DNA of 64,000 bases, taken from NCBI RefSeq assembly GCF_026385505.1, contig NZ_JANIDV010000001.1:186001-250000 (forward strand), given 5' to 3'. Below the pieces are notes generated by a model, which saw only the letters and a list, made by a program, of their open reading frames with translations, was not told the DNA's origin and did no database searches. The number at the start of each line of letters is the position of its first letter. The stretch's first letter is position 1. Both the position numbers and the translations under genes were made by a program. Positions 2,738-55,278 of this stretch are shown here, in pieces. The DNA comes from Bombella dulcis (lineage in GTDB: Bacteria > Pseudomonadota > Alphaproteobacteria > Acetobacterales > Acetobacteraceae).

Positions 2738-3064
2738 CTAGTGGCTGTGATCCGTGCCCGATTTTCCCTCTTCATGGGACGGTTTTTCCTGTGAGGGAGG
2801 AGTGTCTTTTCCAGCCGGTGGGGTGTCCGTTTCTGCTGCCTCGTCATCTTTCTTTCGGGCTGATGGATACAGATTTTCCCGGAAAGGAATGGGCTGGCCA
2901 TCCGGGAAATAACCATTCTCTATTGTCATCTTTTTGGGGAATTTGTCCCGGGTAAAACGGTTCACGAGCCAGTGGATGATGTTGTCCTTGTAGTAGACGG
3001 CATACAGCGCACCCCAGAAGGACAGGCAGAGCAGTGTCAGTATGAGATCAAGATGTTTCATCAC
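2738..3064 (-). CDS. Small single-pass membrane protein of unknown function
   Basis: I do not recognise this 108-residue protein. Residues about 5-25 form one hydrophobic segment (LDLILTLLCLSFWGALYAVY). A basic region follows (RFTRDKFPKK), and the C-terminal 45 residues are hydrophilic and rich in Glu, Lys, Pro and Ser, probably disordered. The layout fits an inner-membrane anchor with a soluble tail. It stands alone on the minus strand between gshB and the methyltransferase. Composition matches the surrounding genome, so there is no sign of recent transfer. Confidence 0.65.
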   Translation of the reverse strand: MMKHLDLILTLLCLSFWGALYAVYYKDNIIHWLVNRFTRDKFPKKMTIENGYFPDGQPIPFRENLYPSARKKDDEAAETDTPPAGKDTPPSQEKPSHEEGKSGTDHSH

Positions 3065-3245: not shown

Positions 3246-3902
3246 ATGGTGTCTTCCCTTAAACCCCGTTCTTCTCTCGATGCTGACAGCGTGCGTGAGG
3301 CCTATCGCCGGTGGGCACGCATGTATGACAAGGTTTTTGGTGGTGTATCCGCTTTCGGGCGGCGGCGGGCCGTGGCAGCTGTCAACGCCCTGCCGGGGAC
3401 GCGTGTTCTGGAGGTCGGGGTTGGTACGGGGCTGGCTCTGCCGTCCTATGGGGCAGACAAGCGCATTACCGGAATCGATCTTTCAGAAGACATGCTGGCC
3501 CTTGCGCGGGAACGTGTGAAGCGTGATGGTTTGCGTAACATAGATGAACTTATGGTGATGGACGCTGAGAATACCAGCTTTGCTGACAATAGTTTCGACA
3601 TTGCGGTGGGCATGTTCGTGGCTTCTGTCGTGCCTCATCCGGACCTGCTGCTGGCGGAGCTGAAAAGGGTCGTGAAGCCGGGGGGGCACATCCTTTTCGT
3701 CAATCATTTCCTTGCGTCCGGCGGTATCCGCCAGAAGGTGGAGCAGGTCATGGCCCGGGCATCCCGGTCGCTCGGCTGGCATCCTGACTTCGCCATTGAA
3801 TCCCTCCTGCCGCCGGAAGATATGGCCCGTGCCACGATTGCCCCCGTCCCGCCCGCCGGGCTGTTCACCCTCGTGACATTGCCGCATGAGGGGACTAAGT
3901 AA
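3246..3902 (+). CDS. pmtA: Class I SAM-dependent methyltransferase, PmtA-like
   Basis: This 218-residue soluble protein has the Rossmann-fold SAM motif I (VLEVGVGTGLALPSY, about residues 55-69), an acidic residue after strand 2 (ITGIDLSEDML), and a post-motif VKPGGHILFVNHF. The N-terminal segment YRRWARMYDKVFGGVSAFGR resembles phospholipid N-methyltransferases of the Rhodobacter PmtA type, which methylate phosphatidylethanolamine to phosphatidylcholine at the membrane surface. The fold is certain; the phospholipid substrate is inferred from family resemblance. A GAGG ribosome-binding site precedes the ATG. Confidence 0.8.
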   Translation: MVSSLKPRSSLDADSVREAYRRWARMYDKVFGGVSAFGRRRAVAAVNALPGTRVLEVGVGTGLALPSYGADKRITGIDLSEDMLALARERVKRDGLRNIDELMVMDAENTSFADNSFDIAVGMFVASVVPHPDLLLAELKRVVKPGGHILFVNHFLASGGIRQKVEQVMARASRSLGWHPDFAIESLLPPEDMARATIAPVPPAGLFTLVTLPHEGTK

Positions 3903-3966: not shown

Positions 3967-5214
3967 GTGACTTCAGGGCCATTATTTCAGACAGTATCTT
4001 CGTCACATCGTGGCGGTAGTGGCGGGGCGTTTTTTCTGCTTGCCCTGTTTGCCGGTATGCTGGGCGGCGTCATGGGGCTGCCCTTCTTGCATGTGCATCC
4101 TTCGGCGGGTGTCATCGTCTCCCATGCCGTGCTGATGACGTTCTATGTCGTCTGCCCTGCCTTTCTGGGCGGTATGGCCCAGTGGTTCCTGCCCGGACTG
4201 CTGAAGGGTGGGGGCATGGCCCTGCCTTCTGCAGCTCGTATCGGTTTTGGTGTACTGGCAGTTGGCGTGTTTCTTCTGCCCGTCATGCCGTCTGTCGGTC
4301 TGGCTCTCTGGAGTGTGGGCGTGCTGGCTCTGGCCTTCAATGTGCTGGCCACGGTGCTGGAGATGCGCTCCATCCCGTTTCGTGATTTTCCGCCGCTGAT
4401 CTGGGCCTTTCTGGCCAATGCTCTTTCCGTACTCATCATTGCACCGGTTCTTCTGGCCTTCCTGCTGCGGAGCGGTATGGCTGGTGGGGGGCCGGAGGCC
4501 CTGCTGACGGTCCTGCGTGGCAGTGTGGAAATGACCCTGCTGAGTGTACCGTCACTCGGCATCATCATGGCCGCTCTTCTGCCGGGGCAGAAGGGGCAGG
4601 GCTGGGTGACCCGGTGTGCACCTTATGCTTTCGGGATCATGGGGCTGGTGCCTGTCCTGTTCTGGGCGGATCATCTGTTCGGTGAACTTTCATCTGCTGC
4701 CTATAAGGCAGGTCTGATCATGGGGCTGGTGCTGCCTTGTCTGGCCCTGCTGGTGGCTTTTGCCAGAGACCTCTGGCGTACGGCCCTGCCTGCCGGTCCT
4801 GCTGCGGGCTGGGCCTCTGGCGGTCTGGTGCTGCTGCTGGCTGGCTGGCTGGCCATGCTGACGGAGCCACTCTGGGCACCGCAGGGTGTCGTACAGCCGG
4901 GGGCTTTCATGCTGGGGGCTGCGGGGCACCAGCTGGTGATGTTTGGGAGCCTGCTGGCCCTGAGTGCAGCCTTTTATGGCTGGTGTGGAAGCAGGCTAGT
5001 CCCTCAGGGACGGTTCTTTGCCATTTTCGGCATGACTCATGCTGCGGTCACTTTTGTCGGGGCACTCTGTTCCGTCCTGTCGCAGCTGGCTGTGCCTGCT
5101 GCCCTGCTGATGGGCACGAGCCTGTTCATGTTCGCCCTGCCTGCCGGACTGGTGTGGTATGGTATGCTGGTTGAACGGACCCAAGGGGTTACGGGATTTC
5201 TTCGTAAACAGTAA
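3967..5214 (+). CDS. Degenerate heme-copper oxidase subunit I-like membrane protein
   Basis: This 415-residue polytopic protein (about 12 hydrophobic segments, GTG start) is a relative of cytochrome c oxidase subunit I. The helix II region SHAVLMTFYVVCPAFLGGM keeps a heme-ligand-like His53. Key sites are altered by eye: the helix VI GHPEVY motif reads GSVEMT (185-190), the helix VII HH pair reads DH (235-236), and the helix X HFH reads HQL (321-323). It therefore probably cannot hold a normal heme-Cu(B) centre. Length is short against the usual 520 or more residues. Its position just before ctaB is where ctaD sits in other alphaproteobacteria. The frame is intact, so it is either a repurposed protein or a decaying one. 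Confidence 0.7.
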   Translation: MTSGPLFQTVSSSHRGGSGGAFFLLALFAGMLGGVMGLPFLHVHPSAGVIVSHAVLMTFYVVCPAFLGGMAQWFLPGLLKGGGMALPSAARIGFGVLAVGVFLLPVMPSVGLALWSVGVLALAFNVLATVLEMRSIPFRDFPPLIWAFLANALSVLIIAPVLLAFLLRSGMAGGGPEALLTVLRGSVEMTLLSVPSLGIIMAALLPGQKGQGWVTRCAPYAFGIMGLVPVLFWADHLFGELSSAAYKAGLIMGLVLPCLALLVAFARDLWRTALPAGPAAGWASGGLVLLLAGWLAMLTEPLWAPQGVVQPGAFMLGAAGHQLVMFGSLLALSAAFYGWCGSRLVPQGRFFAIFGMTHAAVTFVGALCSVLSQLAVPAALLMGTSLFMFALPAGLVWYGMLVERTQGVTGFLRKQ

Positions 5215-5225
5215 GGCGTTTTTTC

Positions 5226-6191
5226 ATGCAGGCATCATCCGGTCTTTCAGCGTCTCCACTGGCACGGTTCCTTGGTACGCTGCGTGTCGAAGGGCAGGAT
5301 GGTGATGCCGCCCTGCAGGACTGGATAGCCCTGCTCAAGCCACGGGTGATTTCGCTTGTGGTCTTTACCGGGCTTGCTGGCATGGCCGTGGCTCCAAAAT
5401 GGCCGTCCGTTCCGGTCGGGCTGGTCATCATTGCCTGTATCTGCATCGGAGCAGGTGCGGCGGGTGCCATCAACATGTGGTATGATCGTGACATTGATGC
5501 GATCATGAAGCGCACCCAAGTTCGTCCCGTACCGGGGGGGCGTGTGGAGCCGATCAGCGTACTGGTTTATGCGGTCGTGCTGTCCGTGGCGTCTGTCGTG
5601 CTGCTCTGGCTGGCGACCAACCTGCTGGCGGCGGGTATTCTGGCCTTTTCCATTTTCTTTTATGGCGTGATCTACACCATGTGGCTGAAGCGCAGCACGT
5701 CGCAGAATATCGTGATTGGCGGAGCCGCCGGGGCCTTCCCGCCCATGATCGGTTGGGCCGCCACGATGGGGTCACTGGATGTGCTGCCGGTGGTGATGTT
5801 CGCCATCGTCTTCCTGTGGACGCCCCCGCATTTCTGGTCACTCTCGCTCTATGCCTGCAAGGATTATGAGAGTGCGGGCATCCCCATGCTGCCGGTCGTG
5901 AAGGGCGCACGCCATACACGCTGGCAGATCGTCATTTACACGTTCATTCTGGGGGCTGTGTCCCTCGTGCCGAGCGTGGTGGGGCAGTGTGGCTGGTTCT
6001 ACACGGTCTGCGCCAGCCTGCTGGACCTTGGCTTCATCTATTACGGACTGCGGGTTCTGTTCGATAAACAGGATGACAAAGGCAACAGCCTGACGAAAGA
6101 CAAACCGGCCCGTCATGCGTTCCGCTATTCATTGGCCTATCTGTTTTTCCTCTTCTGTGGCCTTCTGATTGACAGGGTTCTTCTGGCATGA
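5226..6191 (+). CDS. ctaB: Protoheme IX farnesyltransferase (heme O synthase)
   Basis: CtaB/CyoE attaches a farnesyl chain to protoheme IX, making heme O for the bo3-type ubiquinol oxidase and the precursor of heme A. It is a 321-residue inner-membrane UbiA-family protein with about nine helices. The first prenyl-diphosphate motif is NMWYDRDIDAIMKRT (near residue 82) and the second is KDYESAGIPMLPVVKG (near residue 215). No heme A synthase is visible here. Its product would serve the cyoABCD operon at 52-56 kb. It follows the degenerate subunit I gene by 11 bases and overlaps the next small gene in an ATGA. Confidence 0.96.
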   Translation: MQASSGLSASPLARFLGTLRVEGQDGDAALQDWIALLKPRVISLVVFTGLAGMAVAPKWPSVPVGLVIIACICIGAGAAGAINMWYDRDIDAIMKRTQVRPVPGGRVEPISVLVYAVVLSVASVVLLWLATNLLAAGILAFSIFFYGVIYTMWLKRSTSQNIVIGGAAGAFPPMIGWAATMGSLDVLPVVMFAIVFLWTPPHFWSLSLYACKDYESAGIPMLPVVKGARHTRWQIVIYTFILGAVSLVPSVVGQCGWFYTVCASLLDLGFIYYGLRVLFDKQDDKGNSLTKDKPARHAFRYSLAYLFFLFCGLLIDRVLLA

Positions 6192-6298
6192 GCGATCACA
6201 ACATTCCTTCCCGCCGTCAGGGGCGTCTCTTTGGCATCGTTCTTGGCCTATCCTTTTTTACGCTGGCCCTGTTCGTGGTGGCCCTGTACCGGCTGTAA
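6188..6298 (+). CDS. CoxF-like 36-residue membrane protein
   Basis: This very short gene overlaps the ctaB stop (ATGA at 6188-6191), implying translational coupling. The product starts MSDHNIPSRRQGRLFGIV and has one transmembrane helix (about residues 15-33) after a basic N-terminus. Alphaproteobacterial cox clusters often carry a tiny protein directly after ctaB (CoxF) with the same layout of a basic segment, one helix and a short end. I assign that family by position and shape. It is easily missed because of its size. The long hairpin terminator at 6320-6367 ends the operon. Confidence 0.6.
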   Translation: MSDHNIPSRRQGRLFGIVLGLSFFTLALFVVALYRL

Positions 6299-51840: not shown

Positions 51841-52273
51841 TGATGGATGAGTCGGATCATTGCGTATTTGTGAAGGGGGGCCGTAAGGCTCCCTTTTTTG
51901 TTGCGATTTTTTGCGATTGAAAGGGAAAAAAGAAATTAAGCGTTACAGTTCTTGTTTTTAATGGTGTTCTGGTGTTCTCTTGGGAATGGCAGATAACCGG
52001 TCTTTTTCCAAAAAAGACCGAAGGGGTTCCTTTTTTTTATCAAGCTTGCCCCCTTGTAATCTCCGCTGTTCGGGAAGATTAAAGTGGACGGCACTGGAGC
52101 CTTGAGGCTCTATATTTCATTTTGAGTACGGGGGGAGTTTCTCCCTGTTGTCAGGATACGAACGGGAAAGGCACATATAAGATGACAACGTTCGGTGGCG
52201 ATTGCGCTATCCTGACTGTGTCAGAAAGTGTTCTCGCCTTTCTATGGCAGAACAACAGATAGAGGCAGGATCC
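51841..52273 (+). promoter_or_regulatory. Intergenic region before cyoABCD
   Basis: These 433 bases hold no gene I can support. There is a terminator after the Bax-inhibitor gene (GGGGGGCC at about 51875-51882 pairing with GGCTCCC at 51888-51894, then TTTTTT). A perfect AT/GC palindrome lies at 51998-52020 (CGGTCTTTTT, CC, AAAAAAGACCG), followed by a T8 run near 52032. The cyo promoter must lie here, probably between 52060 and 52230, but I cannot place -35 and -10 boxes securely. GAGGCAGGA precedes ATG 52274. Confidence 0.6.
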
Positions 52274-53266
52274 ATGAAAAGACTCTGGCGATTTTTCCCG
52301 GCGTTGCCTGCATTGATGCTGTCGGGCTGTACGGTTGATCTTCTTCAGCCGGCCGGTCCGATCGGGGAAGGTAATCGCGACATGATGGTGCTCGAATGGG
52401 CCGTCATGATGTGTGTTGTGCTTCCGGTGATTATTGCGACACTCGTATTTGCCTGGAAATATCGGGCTTCCAATGCGAAGGCGGAATATCTACGGAACTG
52501 GTCACATTCTAACAAGATTGAAGTGTTCATCTGGGGTGTACCCATTCTCATCATTCTTGTTCTGAGTGGCTTCAATTACTGGAGCACGCATTATTACGAC
52601 CCGTATAAGCCGATCTCCAAGGAGATGCAGGTAAAAGTCGGTGCGCCCAATGCAAAACCGCTTCATGTGGAAGTGATTTCTCTGGACTGGAAATGGCTGT
52701 TTATTTATCCGGACCTTGGAATTGCAACCATCAACGAGCTGGATGTTCCCACGAAGACGCCTCTGGATTTCCGGATCACGTCTGACAGTGTGATGACATC
52801 CTTCTTCATTCCGCAGCTCGGGTCCCAGATCTACAGCATGGCCGGGATGGAGACACAGCTTCACCTGATGGCAAGCCGTCCAGGCAACTTCCAGGGTGAG
52901 GCCGCCCAGTATACGGGGCCTGGCTTCTCCGATATGCGCTTCCGTACCATCGCCATGCCGCAGGAGCAGTTTGACGCCTGGGTGCAGAACGTGCGCAGCG
53001 GCGGAAACCCGCTTGTCGTCAAGGAAGCTTTGGACGCACAGACCTATCAGAAGTACCACGTTCCGCCGGCTGCCCCGCATGACGCGGCACCAAAACCGGC
53101 TCCGGTCGTGTATTTCTCCAGCGTACAGGCTGGGCTGTTTGAGAACGTTGTTGCGAAATACAATGTCGGCATGACCCATGATCATCATGGGAAAGACATG
53201 GATGAAAAAGCCATGGACATGCATTCCGAATCTCATGCGGCAGCACCTTCCAATACCGGCATGTGA
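52274..53266 (+). CDS. cyoA: Ubiquinol oxidase (bo3-type) subunit II
   Basis: Subunit II of the quinol-oxidising terminal oxidase. I start at ATG 52274 ([19 protein letters not shown]), giving a lipoprotein signal with Cys19 and 330 residues; the frame continues 24 residues upstream without likeness. Two membrane helices ([20 protein letters not shown] and [20 protein letters not shown]) precede the cupredoxin domain ([20 protein letters not shown]). The Cu(A) cysteines of cytochrome c oxidases are absent, as in quinol oxidases. The C-terminus is His/Met-rich ([20 protein letters not shown]). Confidence 0.96.
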
Positions 53267-53280
53267 GGACTGATCTAAAG

Positions 53281-55278
53281 ATGCTCGGAAAACTTACCCT
53301 TTCTGCCATACCGTATGATGTGCCGATCCTGGTCGGTACGTTCATCGGTGTGGCCGTAATCGGGATTGCCGTTCTTGCGGCGGTCACCTATTTCAAAAAA
53401 TGGGGTTATCTGTGGCGCGAGTGGTTGACCACTGTCGATCACAAGAAGCTCGCCATCATGTATGTCGTTCTTGGCCTGGTCATGCTCGTGCGTGGCTTTG
53501 CCGATGCGCTGATGATGCGTACACAGCTTGCCCTTGCCTATGCGGGTAACCCCGGTTATCTGCCACCGCACCATTATGACCAGGTCTTCTCGGCCCATGG
53601 TACGATCATGATTTTCTTCATGGCCATGGTGATGATGCAGGCCCTGTTCAACTTCGTGGTGCCCCTGCAGATTGGTGCGCGTGACGTTGCGTTCCCGCTG
53701 ATCAACTCGATCAGCTTCTACATGACGCTCGTCAGTGCCATTCTCATCAATATCTCCCTCTTTATTGGTGAGTTCTCCAATGTCGGCTGGCTCGGTTATC
53801 CGCCGATCTCCGAACTGCAGTTCAATCCCGGCGTCGGTGTGGATTACTACATCTGGTCCGTGCAGATTTCCGGTATCGGTACGCTGCTGACCGGCATGAA
53901 CTTCCTGACGACGATCATCAAGCTCCGTGCCCCCGGCATGAAGTGGATGCATATTCCCGTCTTCACATGGACGGCCTTCTTTGCCTGCATCATGATCCTG
54001 ACGACCTTCCCGGTCCTGACGGTTTCCATGGCTCTGCTGGCTCTGGACCGTTATGTCGGGATGCACTTCTTCACCAATGATGGTGGCGGTAGCGTCATGC
54101 TCTACCTGAACCTGATCTGGTCCTGGGGTCACCCGGAAGTTTACATCCTCATCCTGCCTGCCTTCGGCGTGTTCTCCGAAATTGCTGCGACCTTCTCCGG
54201 CAAGCCGCTCTTCGGCTATGCCACGATGGTCATTGCAACGGGTATCATCACCTTCCTGGGCAGCATCGTGTGGGTTCACCACTTCTTCACGATGGGTTCC
54301 GGTGCAGATGTGAACACCTTCTTCGGCATCATGACGATGTTCATTGCCGTGCCGACAGGTGTGAAGATCTTCAACTGGCTCTTCACCATGTATAAGGGGC
54401 GTGTCCGTTTCGAAGGTCCGATGCACTGGATCGTCGGCTTCATGATCACCTTCTCCATCGGTGGTATGACCGGTGTGATGATGGCCATGCCGGCAGCGGA
54501 CTGGGTTATCCATAACTCCCTGTTCCTGGTGGCTCACTTCCATAACGTGATCATCGGTGGCGTGTTCTTCGGTTATGTGGCCGGTCTGAGCTACTGGTTT
54601 CCGAAGGCTTTCGGCTTCAAGATGCGTGATGTCTGGGGCAAGTGGGCGTTCCGCTTCTGGTTCGTCGGCTTCTACCTCTCCTTCATTCCGCTCTATGCTG
54701 TTGGTCTGGAGGGCATGACCCGTCGTATGAACCACTATGACAACCCGAACTGGCACCCCTGGCTGCTGGTGGCCTGCGTAGGTGTGTTCGTTCTGGCTGC
54801 CGGTGTGGCCTGTCAGGTCATCCAGTTCGTGTTTGCTGCGTTTGACGCCGTGAACAGGAAGCCGGATGCCCATGATCTCACGGGTGACAGCTGGGGTTCC
54901 GGCCGTACGCTGGAGTGGTCAATTCCGTCTCCGGTTCCGCACTACAACTTCGCACGTCTGCCCGTCATCCGTGGTCTGGATACATTCCATATCGAGAAGG
55001 AGCTGGGTCGTCCGGCACCGGTTGCTGATCTGGAACCGATCCACATGCCGAAATATTCGGCTGTCGGCCCCGTGCTGGGTGCCTGTGGGCTGGTCATTGG
55101 CTTTGCGCTGGTCTGGCACATCTGGTGGGCCGTGATCGTGGGTCTTGTCGTTGCGTTCTTCACTGTGATCCATCGCAGTGCGAACCTCGATGTTGATTTC
55201 TACGTGACGGTGGAAGAGATCCGTGCTGACGAAGAAGCCTTTGCCAAGCGGCTTGCCGCTGCCAGAGCAGCAGAGTAA
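53281..55278 (+). CDS. cyoB: Ubiquinol oxidase (bo3-type) subunit I
   Basis: The catalytic subunit binds low-spin heme b, the high-spin heme and Cu(B), and pumps protons. The 665-residue protein begins [20 protein letters not shown], close to CyoB of enterobacteria. The metal sites are intact: helix [17 protein letters not shown], helix [19 protein letters not shown] with the Cu(B) His and the cross-linked Tyr, helix [13 protein letters not shown], and helix [17 protein letters not shown]. Quinol-site residues [12 protein letters not shown] are also present. A GTG at 53263 is the alternative start. It is the healthy counterpart of the degenerate subunit I at 4 kb. Confidence 0.98.

Follow-up and report, generated by a model that had tools for sequence, protein, structure and literature searches.

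The 64,000-nucleotide stretch of Bombella dulcis DNA analysed here (contig NZ_JANIDV010000001.1, positions 186,001 to 250,000 of the forward strand; hereafter the window) belongs to a genome of 27 contigs and 1.87 Mb with a completeness score of 100%. Directly upstream of ctaB, the gene for heme O synthase, it carries an open reading frame (ORF) designated ctaD*, which runs from a GTG start to a TAA stop through 415 open codons and ends 11 bp before ctaB. An earlier reading of this DNA from its letters alone (the sequence-only reading) had recorded the intact frame in its place beside ctaB, as found here, and had taken its product for a heme-copper oxidase subunit I that has lost its metal ligands, either under selection for a new role or in very slow decay. 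The results presented below suggest that ctaD* has been put to new use as a heme protein and is not a dead gene.

3967–5214, forward strand: ctaD*, a COX1-derived protein of 415 amino acids with twelve predicted transmembrane (TM) helices, its O2-reduction site gone and its low-spin heme bis-His site retained; assigned from reading frame, homology, fold and family.

The ctaD* protein matches no Pfam or NCBIfam family at E ≤ 1, and a PF00115 search of the window's own genome matches only CyoB, the bo3 oxidase subunit I, and not ctaD*. PF00115 does match six less diverged members of the family (genomes G251, G071, G132, G181, G219 and G013). A single-sequence phmmer search against PDB chains matches ctaD* to COX1 at E 6.6e-8, and a profile built from 58 relatives matches COX1 at E 9e-75 over profile positions 14–369 of 419, whereas bo3 is matched by the same profile at E 2e-34 to 2e-39, far below the COX1 score. 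An AlphaFold2 model of ctaD* computed from the family alignment alone (predicted local distance difference test score, pLDDT, 89.5; predicted template modelling score, pTM, 0.90) aligns with bovine COX1 at Z 32.2, with Paracoccus COX1 (1ar1_A) at Z 31.9 and 2.8 Å over 365 residues, and with E. coli bo3 at Z 29.3, and the twelve-helix COX1 fold is present in the model. The relationship to COX1 is far beyond chance, and ctaD* descends from CtaD, subunit I of a mitochondrial-type cytochrome c oxidase. The fold-level likeness to ctaD asserted by the sequence-only reading is thus confirmed by phmmer, by the family profile, and by structure prediction with alignment (Z 32).

Loci were fetched with CtaB as the query, so that ctaD* itself was not used for sampling, and the best 80 of 576 confirmed loci were compared. 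Among these 80, the frame directly before ctaB is ctaD* in 58 and canonical CtaD in 20; two were set aside, one an apparent wrong frame of a real ctaD (L113) and one cut before the gene (L118). The ctaD* loci come from Bombella, Saccharibacter, Gluconobacter, Asaia, Neokomagataea, Swaminathania, Acidomonas, Tanticharoenia, Acetobacter, Gluconacetobacter, Novacetimonas, Komagataeibacter, Commensalibacter, and a few metagenome-assembled genomes (MAGs) or isolates, and the canonical loci from Acidocella, Acidiphilium, Rhodopila, Elioraea, and MAGs. Open copies of 388–473 residues are found in 57 of the 58 ctaD* loci. A search of 200 Acetobacteraceae genomes likewise gives full-length open relatives in many genera, and seven further genomes contain forms of 417–520 residues in the same place before ctaB, most of them less diverged from CtaD. 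Flags for TGA codons in two matches concern the frame ends: in G037 the codon lies just past the frame by coordinates, and in G048 it forms the final codon of the match. Seventeen genomes gave no match to the ctaD* profile; of the nine looked at (G002, G029, G031, G034, G066, G070, G076, G116 and G210), PF00115 matches ordinary frames of about 509–521 residues in three (G031, G002 and G076). One locus at a contig end (L021) was left out of the first 30 homologues.

Residue counts are given over 66 members, namely the window, the 58 loci drawn via CtaB and the seven further genomes; incomplete canonical rows (L123, L125, L126 and L127) were left out of this alignment, and ligands are numbered as in Paracoccus CtaD. 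The positions concerned lie in the window as follows.

4123–4125, forward strand: codon CAT for His53, equivalent to Paracoccus His94, axial ligand of the low-spin heme in helix II; retained (65/66 members; second slowest of 388 sites).

4522–4536, forward strand: SVEMT, residues 186–190, with Ser186 at the position of the CuB ligand His276 and Thr190 at that of the catalytic Tyr280; both lost (His 0/66, Tyr 0/66).

4669–4674, forward strand: Asp235-His236, at the positions of the CuB ligands His325 and His326 (His325 in 24/66, His326 in 5/66).

4921–4923, forward strand: Ala319, at the position of the heme a3 ligand His411; lost (His in 1/66, locus L105; slowness rank 325 of 388).

4927–4929, forward strand: codon CAC for His321, equivalent to Paracoccus His413, axial ligand of the low-spin heme in helix X; retained (66/66 members; third slowest of 388 sites).

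Two of the replacements noted by the sequence-only reading, GHPEVY by GSVEMT and the HH pair by DH (WAHH by WADH), are seen both in the sequence and in the alignment columns. The third, HFH by HQL, is off in register by two residues: counting back without gaps from the common F-Y-x-W that closes helix X, HFH corresponds to A-G-H, and His413 is kept as His321. The claim that the protein has lost its metal ligands is accordingly right for the catalytic ligands, whose loss is common to the clade, and wrong for the low-spin bis-His site, which ranks with the best-conserved features of the family. The alignment places both low-spin ligands at their own canonical positions, in addition to one histidine of the HH pair in Bombella, the only genus in which His326 is retained. 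The complete CuB triad of His276, His325 and His326 occurs in none of the 66 members, nor does the K-channel Lys354 or the Arg473/474 pair. The sole member without His94 is the frameshifted copy L070, whose N-terminus lies in another frame. Ungapped spacing to motif residues is as in CtaD after both axial positions, with Pro at +11 and Gly at +16 (64/66 each), Pro at +23 (60/66), and Met at +4 and Gly at +15 (53/66 each) after His94, and Tyr at +16 (64/66) and Trp at +18 (63/66) after His413. CyoB of the window keeps every ligand tested.

Whereas 146 positions are invariant in the 20 canonical CtaD sequences and the window CyoB, just four of them are invariant in 58 ctaD* members: Trp146, Trp233, His53 and His321. 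The chance of finding both axial ligands among those four is 5.7e-4. Apart from the two histidines, the residues invariant in the 58 members are aromatic (W146, W233, W282 and Y337), and Trp115, which is Ala in canonical CtaD, is Trp in 57/58, with a fitted slowness rank of 88 of 388, not among the slowest. Site rates were fitted for 65 members over 388 sites on a tree of 36.7 substitutions per site; the frameshifted L070 was left out of the rate, tree and invariance counts. The axial histidines rank second and third for slowness, and the positions of the lost ligands His276, His326 and His411 rank 296, 295 and 325. Retention of the axial pair amid drift at the other metal ligands is the pattern expected if one low-spin heme is still bound, and judged from these residues ctaD* probably binds one, the heme most likely being b or o.

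Purifying selection on the gene is evident within genera. Codon-model estimates of omega, the ratio of nonsynonymous to synonymous substitution rates (dN/dS), are 0.111 for the Bombella clade (n = 6; the window, four Bombella and one Acetobacteraceae MAG, L056), 0.079 for Gluconobacter (n = 8), 0.103 for Acetobacter (n = 10), 0.097 for Komagataeibacter (n = 5) and 0.128 for Gluconacetobacter (n = 7), and omega = 1, fitted with kappa fixed at 2 and not re-estimated, fits worse by 247–619 log units across the five clades. The Nei–Gojobori comparison of the window with B. pluederhausensis gives dN 0.049 and dS 0.52, a ratio of 0.093; saturated between-genus pairs (omega up to 0.92) in the pair list are not used as evidence. 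The protein is almost certainly a selected one. The proposal of selection on a new role is supported by these ratios, which at 0.079–0.128 are not near 1, and by ligand loss common to a monophyletic clade; the other possibility put forward, very slow decay once cytochrome c oxidase had been lost, is contradicted by omega values of about 0.1 and by the open frames.

In a tree rooted on one CyoB, ctaD* is monophyletic with an ultrafast bootstrap (UFBoot) support of 100, and the canonical rows are not monophyletic. One ancestral change followed by vertical inheritance is the simplest account of the origin of ctaD*. Two MAGs labelled Asaia bogorensis (L127 and L128) have canonical CtaD motifs and a CtaB that is 56–58% identical to that of the window, compared with 73–78% in the other five Asaia loci; given this distant CtaB, the Asaia labels are taken as wrong and both loci are counted as canonical.

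The neighbourhood of ctaD* and the bo3 oxidase genes of the window comprise the following features.

5226–6191, forward strand: ctaB, heme O synthase, with matches to NF003349 and TIGR01473 above cut-off.

6188–6298, forward strand: micro-ORF of 36 codons for a single-TM product, overlapping the ctaB stop (ATGA); recognised by eye.

3246–3902, forward strand: PmtA-like S-adenosylmethionine (SAM) methyltransferase, the conserved neighbour upstream of ctaD*.

53263–55278, forward strand: CyoB, bo3 oxidase subunit I with intact ligands, the only subunit I of the genome detected by PF00115.

52202–53266: cyoA, upstream of CyoB.

The order pmtA-like gene, ctaD*, ctaB is found in all 18 of the ctaD*-bearing stretches of 16–18 kb that were compared, and the pmtA-like gene also stands upstream of the intact cluster in L160, a genome with a real cytochrome c oxidase, where the order is pmtA-coxB-ctaD-ctaB. 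The NF045882 match of the window's methyltransferase reaches 160.6 bits against a cut-off of 390. The ctaB of the window is 97% identical to those of Bombella intestini and B. pluederhausensis. The micro-ORF after ctaB, which we take to be CoxF-like, was recognised by eye in 57/58 ctaD* loci (not in L070) and in 7/7 of the further genomes; its pattern of an Arg-rich part, a TM segment and a basic-hydrophobic end is shared with real cta operons at the same place, and its product is a candidate COX1-binding assembly micro-protein. Farther upstream, positions 2738–3064 on the reverse strand contain an ORF of 108 codons with a hydrophobic start and a charged tail ending in His, for which PF08113 (CoxIIa) matches only at E 0.12 and nothing exceeds the threshold.

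The genomic company of ctaD* was determined in 38 genomes: 29 with ctaD*; five (G029, G116, G066, G070 and G210) without a match for ctaD*, ctaB or a COX2-type subunit; G001; G003 and G217, with canonical CtaD; and G034, which is 82% complete and has other cytochrome oxidase genes and no COX1 match. The CuB chaperone CtaG/Cox11 and the heme chaperone SURF1 were not found in any of the 29 ctaD* genomes; among the 38 they occur only in G003, G217 and G034. Strong COX2 matches (E near 1e-45) are likewise confined to G003 and G217, with one at 4e-22 in G034; the remaining matches are weaker and probably represent CyoA or a different oxidase. None of the 29 ctaD* genomes gave a match for a canonical CuA subunit. 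Searches for CtaA found nothing in 14 of them, including the window's own genome, so that heme A is not needed there, and those for bc1 cytochrome b found nothing in 6; neither heme A nor bc1 is generally needed for the role of ctaD*. A heme A cytochrome is set aside on the first of these counts together with the R54 position, which retains Arg in just 9/66 members, and a function of ctaD* as electron acceptor of bc1 is weakened by the second. In the five genomes without a COX2-type match, which are taken as lacking bo3, ctaB and ctaD* are missing together; two weak CtaB matches in these genomes (E 7e-8 and 3.5e-5) are probably other UbiA-type enzymes. Three of the five (G029, G116 and G066) have one PF00115 match each, of 785–833 residues at E 1e-41 to 1e-42, taken as non-bo3 and possibly a quinol-type nitric oxide reductase. 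The reduced 1.7-Mb genome G210, of genus g31, gave no match for ctaD*, ctaB, PF00115, COX2 or bc1 cytochrome b; both ctaD* and bc1 cytochrome b are found in the other three genomes of that genus tested (G030, G117 and G169).

Comparison with known systems places ctaD* closest to A1-type CtaD, with which it shares the twelve-TM fold, the operon place before ctaB and the micro-ORF, and the axial His94 and His413, and from which it differs in lacking the heme a3 ligand (except in one of 66 members), a full CuB site, the active-site Tyr, the K-channel Lys and Arg473/474, and in having no CtaG, SURF1 or canonical CuA subunit match in its 29 tested genomes. CyoB of the same genome is alike in fold (Z 29.3 to E. 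coli bo3) and in its low-spin bis-His site but retains all ligands tested, and the ctaD* profile strongly favours COX1 over it (E 9e-75 against 2e-34 to 2e-39). SURF1 is not known to be homologous to ctaD*. The likeness proposed for it is one of working only, the holding of heme for subunit I assembly (PMC9145763, in the passages available).

Overall, we favour with moderate confidence a selected COX1-fold membrane protein whose O2 site was lost once in an ancestor of the acetic acid bacteria and which would carry one low-spin heme in a heme O partner role. Within this reading, heme O handling for bo3 is a possible function that we put forward tentatively. According to the available passages of two papers, the low-spin heme enters subunit I first during oxidase assembly (PMC9145763), and the bo3 oxidase of these bacteria is regarded as an acquisition from other proteobacteria (PMC5112900, citing Matsutani 2014). 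Because the low-spin heme enters first, ctaD* resembles a permanent early assembly intermediate; because the neighbouring CtaB makes heme O and bo3 is regarded as acquired, holding or passing heme between the two is our first choice, ahead of an independent electron carrier. In such a scheme, CtaD of the ancestor would have lost its heme a3/CuB site once and kept the bis-His site of helices II and X; ctaD* would take up heme made by or near CtaB and hold it or pass it on as the acquired bo3 quinol oxidase is assembled, and might thereby take over a job once shared by real COX1 and SURF1, both lost. Stated in full, the one-heme, twelve-TM cytochrome would be a heme O holding or transfer module acting with CtaB and the single-TM micro-protein for a horizontally acquired bo3, a frozen COX1 assembly intermediate reused as an assembly factor; this version is speculative.

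Several observations weigh against this interpretation. The positions of Tyr280, Lys354 and His325 are not fast (ranks 127, 153 and 183 of 388), and the helices of the low-spin site (I, II, X, XI and XII) are not, as a group, significantly slower than helices VI, VII and VIII of the former catalytic site (p 0.13), so that the claim rests on individual sites. The heme-propionate arginines are lost, as is R54 in most members. The family is very divergent, with a mean root-to-tip distance of 4.58 compared with 1.62 for real CtaD, and omega of ctaD* is 1.6 to 5 times that of its neighbours (0.019–0.022 for ctaB and 0.026–0.060 for pmtA in three of the five clades). The ctaD* of Asaia platycodi (L070) is frameshifted near residue 77 (at about 4994–5006 of that locus), whether really or through a draft error. 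Genome G001 (locus L161) has ctaB and two CyoB with ctaD* cleanly absent and pmtA and ctaB adjacent, and ctaD* is therefore not obligatory for CtaB or bo3; a partnership with CtaB, one of the roles suggested by the sequence-only reading, is possible and cannot be an obligatory one. The micro-ORF has gone from G001 along with ctaD* while ctaB is kept, a single event and only a hint. Finally, the pairing of ctaD* with ctaB could reflect inherited position only.

The strongest competing explanation is a stand-alone redox cytochrome, independent of CtaB, whose single low-spin heme would exchange electrons with periplasmic carriers or dehydrogenases on one side and with the quinone pool or some other acceptor on the other. 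Such a protein would equally account for the near-invariant bis-His site, would have been free to evolve a new donor or acceptor with the catalytic centre gone and a canonical CuA subunit not found in the ctaD* genomes tested, and agrees with CtaB doing without ctaD* in G001. It is nonetheless unlikely, as no linked donor or acceptor gene is seen in the 18 stretches compared, and the absence of bc1 cytochrome b matches from six of the 29 genomes indicates that ctaD* does not simply replace a missing bc1 outlet. A role of the two histidines in helix packing, the protein itself having some other membrane function (transporter, channel or sensor), would fit the aromatic character of the other invariant residues, and is quite unlikely in view of the retention of exactly the axial pair, with the other ligand histidines and the catalytic-site Tyr, Lys and Arg lost, and of the CtaD-like ungapped spacing in 53–64 of 66 members, depending on the residue. 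A heme-free structural scaffold stabilising CtaB, as proposed in the available passages of PMC10715153, does not explain why the axial histidines rank among the slowest sites and is at odds with the retention of ctaB in G001; despite the retained fold and the constant place before ctaB wherever ctaD* is present, we regard it as very unlikely. Slow decay of a dead gene after bo3 replaced cytochrome c oxidase, to which the fast divergence, the frameshifted copy and the clean loss in G001 might be ascribed, is rejected as exceedingly improbable given omega near 0.1 in five clades, where omega = 1 fits far worse, open frames in 57 of 58 copies, and sites invariant across the whole family.

A degenerate COX1 beside ctaB is already in print, described as lacking all metal ligands (PMC10715153), and the 'deranged' ctaD adjoining ctaB in Acetobacter (Matsutani 2014) is discussed in the same paper, in the passages available. 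The two descriptions agree in gene family, in place beside ctaB and in the loss of catalytic ligands; the present results differ from the published account of the 'deranged' gene in showing the two low-spin ligands in nearly every or every member (65 and 66 of 66) and purifying selection on the gene. Elsewhere, in similarly partial passages, ctaD is listed among the genes conserved in three A. pasteurianus strains (PMC5158111), and cytochrome c oxidase is counted as present in A. pasteurianus and Granulibacter (PMC4596401, citing Matsutani 2014). Within the passages available from the open literature, a degenerate COX1 was found discussed only in PMC10715153, retained low-spin ligands were not found in print, and no expression or essentiality data for ctaD* were found. 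The retained bis-His site, its near-invariance across the family and the purifying selection thus appear to be new. If ctaD* is indeed a selected single-heme protein, it would represent an unrecognised cytochrome in the respiratory chain of vinegar and bee bacteria, and the heme-copper fold could outlast the loss of its oxygen site and find new use. It would also make testable the question of how heme O reaches bo3, whose heme O synthase in these bacteria was inherited from another oxidase.
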